Below are positions 5,212 to 10,382 of a stretch of DNA of 29,526 nucleotides, in pieces (position 1 is the first letter of the stretch; each line of letters begins with the position of its first letter). The notes beneath the pieces are model-generated. The model did not search any database and had not been told where the DNA came from. It worked only from the letters and a program-made list of their open reading frames with translations. Origin of the DNA: a virus; IMG/VR virus record IMGVR_UViG_3300034012_000267, positions 1 to 29,526 of that record; one strand, given 5' to 3'. Both the position numbers and the translations under genes were made by a program.

Positions 5212-5541
5212 TTACCCTTGTACTTGTTTAGCGGGGGAATTCGCACGTTTTAACTTCTCCACAGCCTTCTCGCCCCAAAGCTGACGTATCAGGCCAATAA
5301 CATCCCTATCCGACAGCACAGCAGCAGGGCCAGCCTCGCGCACTAACTCGGCTACACGCTCACGGTTTACCTCTATGCCTCTCGCTAACTGTGCGTCGTA
5401 GAAGCGCAGTCGGTTCAGCGGTGACTGTCGCACTAACTCATTCCATGTTGCCAAGTTGGAGTGAAGTGAGTGTTCTAGGTTATGACTGGGTTTAGGCTTT
5501 TCCTGTTTAACAGTCGGAGAGTAAGTGTATTCATCACCCAT
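5212..5541 (-). CDS. Hypothetical helical protein, first gene of the minus-strand auxiliary arm
   Basis: A 109-aa protein of no recognised family. The first 30 residues look disordered (SPTVKQEKPKPSHN). The rest is helical and charged, with LNRLRFYDAQLARGIEVNRERVAELVREAG and VIGLIRQLWGEKAVEKLKRAN. Nothing suggests a membrane segment or an enzyme motif. It lies directly downstream of the structured non-coding region 5542-5931 and is followed after 6 nt by the MycE-like methyltransferase, so it probably heads that transcript. A weak AGGT lies about 8 nt before the ATG. Confidence 0.7.
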   Translation of the reverse strand: MGDEYTYSPTVKQEKPKPSHNLEHSLHSNLATWNELVRQSPLNRLRFYDAQLARGIEVNRERVAELVREAGPAAVLSDRDVIGLIRQLWGEKAVEKLKRANSPAKQVQG

Positions 5542-5567
5542 GTTGATTACCTATCTGTGGTTTAAGA

Positions 5568-5647
5568 CTGATGACTGATGGTGAACTCTGCACGGTTAAG
5601 ACGGATTACGCCTAACGTGGATCGTGCAGAGAATTGATGACTGACGG
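5568..5647. repeat. Direct repeats flanking a 9-bp perfect hairpin
   Basis: CTGATGACTGATGG at 5568-5581 recurs as TTGATGACTGACGG at 5634-5647 (12 of 14 identical). Between the two copies, CTCTGCACG (5586-5594) pairs perfectly with CGTGCAGAG (5623-5631). Within the loop, GTTA (5595-5598) can pair with TAAC (5613-5616). The symmetric arrangement repeat-hairpin-repeat is unlike the surrounding DNA and suggests a protein-binding or processed site. Confidence 0.6.
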
Positions 5648-5805
5648 AGCCACCCTGCTGTCGGCTACTTTTCACAGGTTTCCCTGCTGTGGTTCGCGCT
5701 TCCCGACGACACGCTGCGCGTTCAGAGGCCCACCGCCCCGGTCTGAATTTAAGCCTGTTCTGCGCGTTGTTTCCCCGACCAGAACAGCCGAGGCGTAGAG
5801 GTAAG

Positions 5806-5833
5806 TTGACAGGGGGATTAACCGAGCTAAACT
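5806..5833 (+). promoter_or_regulatory. Candidate promoter P1 (small RNA promoter)
   Basis: TTGACA (5806-5811, perfect -35), a 16-bp spacer and TAAACT (5828-5833, 4 of 6). The spacer contains GGG followed by GATTAACC at 5816-5823, the same element as in P2 and P3. No ORF with an SD follows; the next feature downstream is a terminator-like hairpin. Confidence 0.55.
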
Positions 5834-5839
5834 ACTGCT

Positions 5840-5910
5840 ACGCCGAACTGCAACCCGAGCGTATAGGCAGCCAGCCTGCCGCGTCAAGCCCCCTAACGGG
5901 GGTTTGTCGT
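5840..5910 (+). ncRNA. Candidate small non-coding RNA, about 70 nt
   Basis: The interval runs from the predicted start of promoter P1 (about 7 nt after its -10 box) to a terminator-like hairpin. It contains one internal 5-bp hairpin (5866-5870 with 5876-5880) and no start codon with an SD. It is convergent with the Cro-like gene, whose stop is at 5932. This is an inference from promoter plus terminator geometry only. It could act as a regulatory RNA of the genetic switch, for example antisense to a read-through of the Cro-like transcript. Confidence 0.4.
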
Positions 5911-5915
5911 TTCTG
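5885..5915 (+). terminator. Rho-independent-like terminator
   Basis: CAAGCCCCC (5885-5893) pairs with GGGGGTTTG (5898-5906) across a TAAC tetraloop, with one G-T wobble, followed by TCGTTTCT. It is GC-rich with a modest T-rich tail on the plus strand. On the minus strand, downstream of the Cro-like stop, the tail is poorer. It may serve convergent transcripts from both sides. A second GC hairpin (5937-5941 with 5946-5950, followed by TTT) lies just inside the Cro-like gene. Confidence 0.5.
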
Positions 5916-5931
5916 GGTTCCGTAGAACGCA

Positions 5932-6099
5932 TTAGCGCCCCTGTGGGGGCTTTACCTGCCCAGCCTTGTACTGCCACAGCCTTGCCTGCGGGATGCGTCC
6001 ATTGCGTATCCAGCGGGATACGGCTGGAGGGCTGACCTTAAATGCCCGAGCTATGCCAGCCGGGGAACCAAACTTCTTAAGTGCCTGCTGAATGTCCAT
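5932..6099 (-). CDS. Cro/YdaS-type helix-turn-helix repressor
   Basis: A 55-aa DNA-binding protein: MDIQQALKKFGSPAGIARAF then KVSPPAVSRWIRNGRIPQAR. It has the compact Cro/YdaS pattern, with a short helix, FGSPAGIARAF as the second helix, VSPPAVSRW as the recognition helix, and a closing RIPQARLWQ helix. It lacks any oligomerisation or cleavage domain and so resembles Cro rather than CI. The ATG at 6099 is the only usable start because an in-frame TAA lies 9 nt upstream; GGGAAG directly abuts the ATG, an unusually close SD. The gene is divergent from the early operon and presumably represses the early promoters by binding the TTAACC-containing sites at 6108-6208. No partner CI-like gene is seen. 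Confidence 0.88.
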   Translation of the reverse strand: MDIQQALKKFGSPAGIARAFKVSPPAVSRWIRNGRIPQARLWQYKAGQVKPPQGR

Positions 6100-6107
6100 C
6101 TTCCCAC

Positions 6108-6208
6108 GTTAACCTAGGTTTATGCTTATTGCAACACCAGAATACATAGCATTGTGTGTATGTATTTTTGTGTTTGGGGTGTTGACGCAGGGTTAACCCG
6201 TGTTAACA
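6108..6208. promoter_or_regulatory. Candidate operator cluster between cro-like gene and early operon
   Basis: The divergent intergenic space contains GTTAACC (6108-6114), the palindrome AACCTAGGTT (6111-6120), the palindrome GGGTTAACCC (6190-6199) and the palindrome TGTTAACA (6201-6208). The last two fall in the spacer and on the -10 box of promoter P2. Repeated TTAAC-centred palindromes beside a Cro-type gene are the expected layout of repressor operators. Binding itself is inferred. Confidence 0.55.
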
Positions 6209-6209
6209 T
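6182..6209 (+). promoter_or_regulatory. Early promoter P2
   Basis: TTGACG (6182-6187), a 16-bp spacer holding GGGTTAACCC, and TAACAT (6204-6209). TATATT at 6209-6214 is a better -10 by itself but would need a 21-bp spacer. The layout aligns with P1 and P3. The first early gene starts 50 nt downstream with a TAGGAAG SD. Confidence 0.6.
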
Positions 6210-6259
6210 ATATTCCATAGACAGCGCGGTGCTGGCTACCACAGATAGGAAGCAAAGCA

Positions 6260-6532
6260 ATGGAAATTACGATGACGGTTCTTCGCCGAATTTATAAAAG
6301 CTGCCAGCTTGATATGTTGGCCGGACATTACGGTCTAACGCTGGTAAAAACCTCTAGCGGCTGCCAAAACACTCGCAGCGGCTGGACGTTTACGGGGTCA
6401 GTTGATGCTTGGCGCAAACTTGCAGATGACGTTGACTTCCGTAGCTCTGGTGGCTTTAGCAGCGATTGCGCGACTCGCAAAACTGACGGCTTGCATGGCC
6501 GCATCAACAAGTATCTCGCCAAAGCCAAGTAA
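6260..6532 (+). CDS. Hypothetical small basic protein, first early gene
   Basis: A 90-aa protein, rich in Lys and Arg, of no recognised family. It contains GHYGLTLVKTSSGCQNTRSGWTFTG and a C-terminal basic helix GRINKYLAKAK. The start at 6260 is supported by TAGGAAG 7 nt upstream; a second Met at residue 5 lacks a better SD. As the first gene behind P2 and adjacent to the repressor, it is in the place where phages often encode host-takeover or regulatory proteins, but nothing in the sequence shows which. Confidence 0.75.
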   Translation: MEITMTVLRRIYKSCQLDMLAGHYGLTLVKTSSGCQNTRSGWTFTGSVDAWRKLADDVDFRSSGGFSSDCATRKTDGLHGRINKYLAKAK

Positions 6533-6539
6533 TCAATAT

Positions 6540-6560
6540 GGCGGGGACTTCAAACCCGCC
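6540..6560 (+). terminator. Hairpin between the first early gene and promoter P3
   Basis: GGCGGG (6540-6545) pairs with CCCGCC (6555-6560) over a 9-nt loop, 8 nt after the stop of the first early gene. It has no T-tract, so it is at best a weak terminator or an mRNA 3' stabiliser. It ends 2 nt before the -35 box of P3. Confidence 0.35.
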
Positions 6561-6562
6561 TG

Positions 6563-6591
6563 TTGACTCGGGGAATAACCTCGGTTAATAT
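6563..6591 (+). promoter_or_regulatory. Early promoter P3 for the recombination operon
   Basis: TTGACT (6563-6568), a 17-bp spacer and TAATAT (6586-6591, 5 of 6) form a strong sigma70-type promoter. The spacer contains GGG followed by AATAACC, and GGTTAATA overlaps the -10 box, again resembling the candidate operators. An AGGAG SD follows at 6616-6620. Confidence 0.75.
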
Positions 6592-6628: not shown

Positions 6629-6895
6629 ATGTTCAAGGATAAGTATTCAGCCCTCGGCACCTTCTACGCCCTCGGCAACAAGTTTGAAGTTGACGTTGAG
6701 TATTCGCAGGACATGGACAACAGCGTGTTCGTAGAAAGCGCCACCCTGATCGGCATCTACTTGGACAACGACAAACACGCCTCCTCGCTTAACCACAACA
6801 TCAAGCTAGACCTAACCGACCTGTCAGCCGACGACGAGTTTGAGTTGACCGAGATTGCCACCCTTGATGCGCTCCGCAACGGGGGTCTGGAATGA
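6629..6895 (+). CDS. Hypothetical acidic protein
   Basis: An 88-aa acidic protein starting MFKDKYSALGTFYALGNKFE. No domain is recognised. Asp and Glu dominate the C-terminal half (LDLTDLSADDEFELTEIATLDALRNGG), so a DNA-mimic or protein-binding role is possible but unproved. The ATG at 6629 has AGGAG 8 nt upstream; an in-frame TTG at 6563 lies inside the promoter and is rejected. It is the first gene behind P3, and its stop overlaps the next start by ATGA. Confidence 0.75.
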   Translation: MFKDKYSALGTFYALGNKFEVDVEYSQDMDNSVFVESATLIGIYLDNDKHASSLNHNIKLDLTDLSADDEFELTEIATLDALRNGGLE

Positions 6896-7014: not shown

Positions 7015-7132
7015 TGACCTGACTTGGTGGCATCACCAAGACGAACTGATGCAGCAGCTTGAAGAACAAGAACGCATAGACGCCTGTAACCGGGCATTGG
7101 ATGAACTAAAGGAGAATGACGATGCAGAGTGA
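7004..7132 (+). CDS. Small acidic helical hypothetical protein
   Basis: A 42-aa protein starting MHDDDLTWWHHQDELMQQLEEQERIDACNRALDELKENDD, essentially one long, highly charged helix with coiled-coil potential. The ATG at 7004 has GAGGAG 10 nt upstream; a longer in-frame version from 6941 would run through the lipoprotein gene and is rejected. It overlaps the preceding gene by 11 nt and the ERF gene by 11 nt. Function unknown. Confidence 0.6.
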   Translation: MHDDDLTWWHHQDELMQQLEEQERIDACNRALDELKENDDAE

Positions 7133-7763
7133 AACCATCGGCGCATTGGCCGCCGCATTAAGCAAAGCCCAAGCCGACATTACGGGTGCGCTGAAAGACA
7201 GCAGCAACCCGTTTTTCAAGTCCAAGTACGCCGATCTGGCGGCGTGTTGGGATGCCTGCCGTAAGCAGCTCGCGGCAAACGGTTTGTCGGTGATCCAGAC
7301 CACGCAGATGACCGAGCAGGGCTTGATGCTCGTCACCACGCTGGCTCACGCAAGCGGTGAGTGGATTGCAGGACAGATGCCCGTGCTGACCAAGGACAAC
7401 AGCCCGCAGGGGCAGGGCAGCGGCATCACTTACGCCCGTCGTTATGCCCTCGCAGCCATCGTGGGTTTGGCGCAGATTGATGATGACGCCGAGGCTGCAC
7501 AGGGACGGTTTACCAACGACCCGCGTGGCGATCTGGGTAAGAAGTTTGACCAGAGCAAACGCGACTCGTTTGTGCAGCAGTTTCGTAGCGCGTTTGACCT
7601 AGACGCCGAGGAAAAAGACATTGCCCTTGCCGTACTAGCCGTGCATGAGGCGCTGAACCCTGACCATGACCTGTATATCGCCGTGGCAGATGTGCTGACG
7701 GCAAAGGAACGGTCAGCGATCAAGAAGTACATTCAAATGGCAAAGGAGCAGAACCGTGGATAA
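7122..7763 (+). CDS. erf: ERF-family single-strand annealing recombinase
   Basis: A 213-aa protein that anneals complementary single strands in phage recombination and genome circularisation. The family hallmarks are present: an N-terminal helix (ALAAALSKAQADI), then SNPFFKSKYADLAACWDACRKQLAANGLSVIQTT (about 28-61), VTTLAHASGEWI, and the signature SPQGQGSGITYARRYALAAI followed by VGLAQIDDDAEAA (94-126). The ATG at 7122 is preferred over 7116 because AAAGGAG ends 7 nt before it, whereas 7116 is only 1 nt from the SD. The C-terminal third is helical and variable, as usual. It is followed by an SSB-like gene and a nuclease gene, a typical annealing-recombination set. Confidence 0.93.
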   Translation: MQSETIGALAAALSKAQADITGALKDSSNPFFKSKYADLAACWDACRKQLAANGLSVIQTTQMTEQGLMLVTTLAHASGEWIAGQMPVLTKDNSPQGQGSGITYARRYALAAIVGLAQIDDDAEAAQGRFTNDPRGDLGKKFDQSKRDSFVQQFRSAFDLDAEEKDIALAVLAVHEALNPDHDLYIAVADVLTAKERSAIKKYIQMAKEQNRG

Positions 7764-9560: not shown

Positions 9561-9834
9561 AGAAGCCCGAGGGCGTGGTTGTACCGTGCGTATACCGAGC
9601 GTCTGTAACTTCAATTCCGAAACAGTCGTGCTGGCGCATATCCGCGTAACAGGGGTTAGCGGCATGGGGCTGAAGTCACCCGATCTGCTTGGGGCGTGGT
9701 GCTGTTCTAGCTGTCACGACGAGGTAGACGGCAGAACGCATAAAAGCGGGCTGTCACGCGATGAGCTACGCCTAGCCCATTACGACGGTATGGCTCGCAC
9801 CATCATGCAATTACACAAAGAGGGGTTGGTATGA
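9547..9834 (+). CDS. YbcO-like (DUF1364) putative nuclease
   Basis: A 95-aa protein of the phage family DUF1364 (E. coli DLP12 YbcO), considered an HNH-like metal-binding nuclease. Visible features are LRKEARGRGCTVRIPSVCN (C12, C20), ETVVLAHIR (H31), SGMGLKSPDLLGAW and CCSSCHDEVDG (C53, C56, H57, D58), the cysteine/histidine set that would bind metal. The ATG at 9547 has CGGAG 5 nt upstream; the in-frame frame from 9514 lies inside ninB. In lambdoid phages YbcO-type genes accompany ninB, as here. The substrate is not established. Confidence 0.88.
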   Translation: MSLRKEARGRGCTVRIPSVCNFNSETVVLAHIRVTGVSGMGLKSPDLLGAWCCSSCHDEVDGRTHKSGLSRDELRLAHYDGMARTIMQLHKEGLV

Positions 9835-10382
9835 ACTTTTGGGCTGACACGCCTTATCTCACCGCGTACGTGCGTAACGAGTTCCTACACGACCATGAGA
9901 AGGGCAAAGGTGAATTTACCCTTTGCACGGTATTTGGTTTTCGTGCTGAACCCATGCGCGTACCCTACTTTCAAATCATGTTGGAGTCAGGCGCACAATG
10001 GGCGCGTATCCCGATTCACGCGCTCTGTAGCAAGCCCTGCCCCGAAATGGCGTTACAGCTTGCGGTGTGGTGGGATAGCTTTAGCCGCAACTGTCAGGTC
10101 AAAGAAGTAGCGTTCCTGCGTAACCACCGGGTCAAGGCTATAGGGCGTGACGGGGTGCAGCGCCCGGGAACGTACTTGATGACGGTGTTCTGGTGTGACG
10201 GTGGTTGGAGCGAGATACCCGACCAGAGCAAAGACCATCACATTATCGCGTTGGATACAGGCCAGTTTATTGCTTACCCTAATAACAGGTTGTTATGGGC
10301 TGACCCGAGTTGGATCAGGGGAGAGGTGCCGAGGGATTGGCGTAGTCCGTCAACCAACTACAGCGTGGAGGCATTACCATGA
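9831..10382 (+). CDS. Conserved-looking phage hypothetical protein
   Basis: A 183-aa protein of no recognised family. It is rich in aromatic residues and looks like a mixed alpha/beta globular protein (MALQLAVWWDSFSRNCQVKEVAFL, DHHIIALDTGQFIAYPNNRLLWAD). There is no membrane segment or metal-binding cluster. The ATG overlaps the YbcO-like stop (ATGA). It belongs to the early operon, so a role in replication, recombination or host takeover is likely but unspecified. Confidence 0.75.
   Translation: MNFWADTPYLTAYVRNEFLHDHEKGKGEFTLCTVFGFRAEPMRVPYFQIMLESGAQWARIPIHALCSKPCPEMALQLAVWWDSFSRNCQVKEVAFLRNHRVKAIGRDGVQRPGTYLMTVFWCDGGWSEIPDQSKDHHIIALDTGQFIAYPNNRLLWADPSWIRGEVPRDWRSPSTNYSVEALP

Follow-up and report, generated by a model that had tools for sequence, protein, structure and literature searches.

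Putative Cro operators at three promoters and a structured leader RNA in the early control region of a phage family

By sequence comparison, a 14-bp dyad is common to three promoters, Pcro, P2 and P3, in the early region of the phage record IMGVR_UViG_3300034012_000267 (29,526 nt, analysed whole and referred to here as the window), and in related phages the dyad at these promoters, and not at a further promoter-like element, P1, tracks the class of the Cro protein encoded beside them. We propose that Pcro, P2 and P3 form a Cro regulon and that P1 and the element facing it, PII, lie outside this regulon, with a structured leader on the leftward transcript; we put the probability of this reading at roughly 0.85. 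A dimer of the 55-aa Cro-family protein would bind the dyad over the -10 boxes of the three promoters and, once enough Cro was present, RNA polymerase would be blocked at all of them, so that the early genes and cro itself would be turned off together. P1 would give rise to a terminated RNA of ~70 nt and PII to the mRNA of the leftward operon, headed by a structured leader of ~300 nt. Binding and dimerisation of Cro, repression, the transcription starts, the mutual exclusion of P1 and PII and the role of the leader are steps that we infer, and another regulator, not seen here, may exist that shares the specificity of Cro.

Related control regions were collected with an ERF query, which gave 80 loci, and with a Cro query, which gave 30; a scan with a conserved string from the leader reached at least 120 IMG/VR stretches. 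The cro gene is present in 189 loci, 131 of them distinct. The relatives keep the gene order p109 (leftward), cro (leftward), a rightward variable gene or none, p110 and ERF. In the window, p110 is the first gene past P3 (6629-6895, plus strand, with its ATG at 6629) and is conserved in relatives, and it is followed by a gene for an ERF-type single-strand annealing protein (7116-7763, plus strand; Pfam ERF, 1.6e-23; PHROG 2324).

The Cro protein and its putative operators in the window

The leftward cro-like gene (5932-6099, minus strand) encodes a 55-aa member of the P22-type Cro family: the protein scores 32.5 bits against P22_Cro (PF14549; E 7e-8), over the Pfam cut-off of 30.2, and PDB profiles match it to the Cro proteins of P22 (1rzs), N15 (2hin) and Xfaso (3bd1). 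The original prediction had labelled it Cro/YdaS; the first half of that label stands and the second falls, the score against YdaS (PF15943) being 27.5 bits, under the curated cut-off of 30.

Promoter-like sequences do exist where they had been placed, at P1 (5806-5833, plus strand; TTGACA-N16-TAAACT), at the early promoter P2 (6182-6209, plus strand; TTGACG-N16-TAACAT) and at P3, the promoter of p110-ERF-SSB (6563-6591, plus strand; TTGACT-N17-TAATAT). These three are the sole sigma-70-type matches between 5200 and 7200, where 1.2 would be expected, and a search of the record with TTGAC-N3-GGG-N-WTAACC, at most two mismatches being allowed, likewise matches only P1, P2 and P3. The claim that all three share an operator-like element held up for P2 and P3 and failed for P1: a whole-record scan with the dyad TTAAC-N4-GTTAA gives its top three scores in 29.5 kb to P2, P3 and Pcro, the last of which is the third site. 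Nor does the element lie wholly in the promoter spacer, as had been suggested; the right half of the 14-bp dyad is part of the -10 box.

The putative operators are TTAACCCGTGTTAA in P2 (6193-6206; dyad score 10/10, the top in the record), TTAACCTAGGTTTA in Pcro (6109-6122) and ATAACCTCGGTTAA in P3 (6575-6588), the latter two tied for second at 9/10. Pcro itself (6106-6134, minus strand) has a -35 box TTGCAA at 6134-6129, a 17-nt spacer and a -10 box TAACGT at 6111-6106. The palindromes described earlier in P2, GGGTTAACCC and TGTTAACA, were confirmed, as was a GTTAACC at 6108 before the cro start, which proves to be half of the dyad inside Pcro. The dyad score of P1, 8/10, is background and is equalled at eight other places in the record. 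Taken alone, GTTAAC is not enriched in the record (4 found, 5.6 expected), and GGGNTTAACC, with one mismatch allowed, is mildly enriched (10 found, 5.1 expected).

A structured leader RNA and two facing promoter-like elements

Between PII and p109 lies a candidate leader RNA for the leftward operon (5542-5851, minus strand; conserved core 5569-5851), ~300 nt long with about ten helices. Across 39 diverse sequences its 52 minus-strand pairs are paired in 98.9% of cells and 19 of them have changed on both sides; covariation is 0.262 compared with 0.115 in shuffles (0 of 500 reaching the observed value), and when the partners are slid by 1-3 columns only 29-44% remain paired. We place the leader on the minus strand because its G-U wobbles and GNRA loops read only there: among non-Watson-Crick standard pairs, wobbles occupy 163 cells on the minus strand against 4 on the plus strand, and the loop of one variable hairpin reads GAAA, GCAA or GUAA. 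The hairpin in the P1 spacer, with Watson-Crick ends required, also favours the minus strand (21 wobbles against 3). The strand of the first 100 nt is less certain, since this domain folds slightly better when read as plus. A plus-strand RNA was first considered for the P1 region because of a terminator at 5885-5906; for 5569-5800 it was rejected on the same loops and wobbles. RNAalifold applied to a 63-sequence alignment was uninformative, as the variable hairpins fail to align.

The leader is probably a new class of RNA, absent from Rfam 15, in which neither the window nor nine relatives match any family over the gathering threshold. The hairpin at 5701-5789 (minus strand) aligns weakly with the Betaproteobacteria-1 RNA (RF02932), the two having GGUCGGG...AAA in common, at 19.1 bits where the cut-off is 49.4 (E 0.52); the nine relatives give no match to it. 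We note that TGATGACTGA(T/C)GG occurs twice, at 5569-5581 and 5641-5655, that it is nearly invariant and that it flanks the last hairpin of the leader.

Given its position, the leader most likely acts on the leftward operon by controlling elongation or translation. The first gene of that operon, p109 (5212-5541, minus strand; aligned in 23 sequences), has a helical model with a mean pLDDT of 72, for which fold searches returned no significant match. The put RNA of HK022 sits on the early operons, with ~70 nt and two stem-loops (PMC9378689), and resembles the leader in being a structured RNA right downstream of a phage promoter and ahead of an operon, whereas the leader is longer, at ~300 nt, and has about ten helices. 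It is unlikely, if conceivable, that the RNA instead has a trans role or is processed into a stable species: its size and strength of structure are closer to those of large phage RNAs than to those of simple attenuators, and it is conserved across those IMG/VR stretches reached by the scan, yet its end lies right ahead of the start codon of p109, where a terminator scan found no minus-strand terminator. Large and widespread in IMG/VR, the leader in its proposed cis role would, from its position, be suited to control of the whole operon.

P1 and PII are a conserved pair of face-to-face promoter-like elements. PII (5858-5887, minus strand; TTGACG-N18-TACGCT) is kept as TTGACR-N17/18-TANNNT in all 104 distinct modules, spacers of 13-20 being allowed, and P1 as TTGACW-N16-18-YANNNT in 100 of the 104, compared with 10% in shuffled spacers. 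The RNA predicted from P1, ~70 nt (5840-5906, plus strand), would begin at a start placed from the -10 box and end at a terminator-like hairpin (5885-5906), found by the terminator scan and conserved in the alignment. The predicted starts, ~5840 (plus) and ~5851 (minus), are so close that polymerase would be unlikely to hold both elements together, and their occupation is thus probably mutually exclusive. The PII spacer (5863-5882 in the window) forms an almost perfect inverted repeat, with arms that vary in almost every phage; in 62 distinct sequences, 286 of its 290 pairs are Watson-Crick, and its wobbles favour neither strand.

Another possibility, which we regard as quite improbable, is that neither element is a promoter and that the fixed positions (TTGACA, A and T) belong to the leader RNA or to a DNA site for some other protein. 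P1 does lie inside the first hairpin of the leader, the arms of which covary, and the spacer of PII is a near-perfect, variable dyad. The fixed positions are, however, those of the sigma-70 boxes, kept at the spacings given above while the intervening sequence varies freely, and a leader RNA needs a promoter, for which PII is in the right place and on the right strand. The P1 spacer is a variable hairpin near the 5' end of the leader, which accounts for the occurrence of TTAACC at P1 in part of the family.

Operator class and the Cro recognition helix in relatives

Cro classes were defined by the recognition helix, PAVSRWIR in class A, to which the window belongs, and GAVSQWVK in class B. With a class A cro, Pcro carries the dyad TWAAC-N4-GTTWA in 22 of 24 cases and P2/P3 carry it in 37 of 42; with a class B cro, the dyad GTTTAG-N4-CTAAAC is present in 30 of 30 and 31 of 36, respectively. 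As the operator classes were named after the promoters had been inspected, these scores confirm a pattern and are not a blind prediction. The dyad of the opposite class was found at Pcro, P2 or P3 in no class A and in no class B relative, and random windows attain the class A and class B scores in 0.4% and 0.1% of cases. A regular-expression count restricted to promoters with a YANNNT -10 box gives the own-class dyad in 31 of 34 (A) and 31 of 34 (B); the loci being related, such class counts are not independent events, and cro, Pcro and P2 lie side by side and are in part inherited together. The operators of classes C and D were resolved to a lower standard than those of A and B.

P3 is informative in this respect. 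In three class B phages (L012, L008 and L007) the P3 dyad is GTTTAGACGACTAAAC, and the 5' UTR and p110 start that follow are homologous to those of the window; their p110 and ERF share 80-98% identity with those of the window. The P3 operator has therefore been swapped within a homologous flank, and linkage is not by itself a sufficient explanation of the correspondence. It is thus barely tenable that the correspondence reflects block inheritance of cro, P2 and P3 with no functional coupling: the loci are indeed related and Pcro and P2 lie within ~100 bp of cro, but P3 is 0.3-0.8 kb off behind unrelated cargo, with a homologous flank downstream of a differing operator, and P1, 290 bp beyond the other side of cro, has no class match, while linkage by itself would not swap P3 and yet spare P1.

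A further set of cro genes, with the helix PAVSRWVK, also has TAAC-type dyads, which suggests that the residues of the helix determine the operator class. PAVSRW helices pair with TTAAC half-sites and GAVSQW helices with TTTAG, so that the recognition rules of the smallest Cro proteins become testable, and the phage family provides naturally occurring pairs of matched repressor and operator.

P1 does not take part in this pattern and was rejected as a Cro target. It attains the own-class operator score in 0 of 23 class A and 1 of 30 class B relatives, and TTAAC is about as common in P1 spacers with a class B cro (10 of 30) as with class A (10 of 23); in L004, whose Cro is identical to that of the window over all 55 aa, P1 lacks TTAACC. 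The original prediction had placed the early gene at P2, the recombination operon at P3 and a possible small RNA at P1 under one regulator; the first two remain, their dyad tracking the Cro helix, and P1 with its small RNA drops out. A single regulon of P1, P2 and P3, with Cro reading TTGAC-N-GGG-N-TTAACC in all three spacers, would account for the (A/T)TTAACC or AATAACC in each of them in the window and for the P1 score of 8/10, but this comparison largely refutes it, GGG not being kept in P2/P3 of the relatives either, and we consider it very improbable.

The layout of Pcro is alike in class A and class B relatives, with a similar spacing between the -10 box and the ATG. From this distance the predicted start falls on the ATG or immediately beside it in both classes (6097-6111, minus strand, in the window), and the cro mRNA is therefore probably leaderless or nearly so; in class C the predicted start is within a few nt of it. 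In L030 and other class C loci, divergent overlapping promoters lie ~9-49 nt upstream of cro on a palindrome, TTGACA-N4/6-TGTCAA, which is flanked on both sides by TATCCT -10 boxes.

The variable early-gene slot and known systems

P2 and P3 flank a slot (6210-6562 in the window) that holds a 90-aa cargo gene (6260-6532, plus strand) belonging to no family; it has no Pfam match, and a scan for its relatives returned nothing. Between P2 and P3, relatives carry at least 14 unrelated families of small ORFs, nearly all of them in class A and B phages; none of ten slot genes examined matches a Pfam family over the cut-off. In class C phages and some others the slot is empty and one promoter directly serves p110. 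The slot looks like an exchange place for early genes under the repressor of the phage itself, and as such an operator-flanked slot would mark exchangeable early genes, possibly for host takeover or counter-defence. The Aca autorepressors of anti-CRISPR operons, in which a small HTH protein shuts off small variable early genes, offer a parallel in the pairing of such a protein with a cluster of this kind, the differences being that cro here is divergent from the cargo and that the cargo genes examined include no recognised anti-defence family.

The Cro proteins of P22, N15 and Xfaso belong to the same family by profile, and their O_R operators, like the putative ones at P2, P3 and Pcro here, are short inverted repeats that overlap early promoters. 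Here the recognition helix varies jointly with the half-site, a correlated change proposed for lambdoid Cro proteins by Hall et al. (2005), as cited in PMC4997575. The Cro of phiKO2 reportedly binds only OR3 and does not repress its own synthesis (PMC4997575), whereas here the same putative operator is also present in the promoter of cro. In P22-type systems a CI/C2 partner competes for the same operators; here, 18 records contained no S24-type repressor, in a search that would miss a repressor lacking the S24 domain, and neither a tyrosine integrase (PF00589) nor a resolvase (PF00239), the records being possibly fragments. ERF relatives and the leader core were absent from 84,980 species genomes, among which the host species may be missing. 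The phage family is apparently virulent. It is quite possible, and we suggest it tentatively, that in a phage with no CI-type repressor or integrase a Cro-only autorepressor silences a plug-in slot and that the specificities of repressor and operators are exchanged jointly between phages, while two mutually exclusive face-to-face promoters, one of them starting a new class of structured leader of ~300 nt, set the leftward operon.

A DNA-level phage search gave no match; by capsid, the nearest named phages are Myxococcus phage Mx8 (53%) and Stenotrophomonas phage BUCT555 (52%). Among the rightward genes of the window there is also a ferredoxin-like auxiliary gene (phrog_3704; 9831-10382, plus strand).
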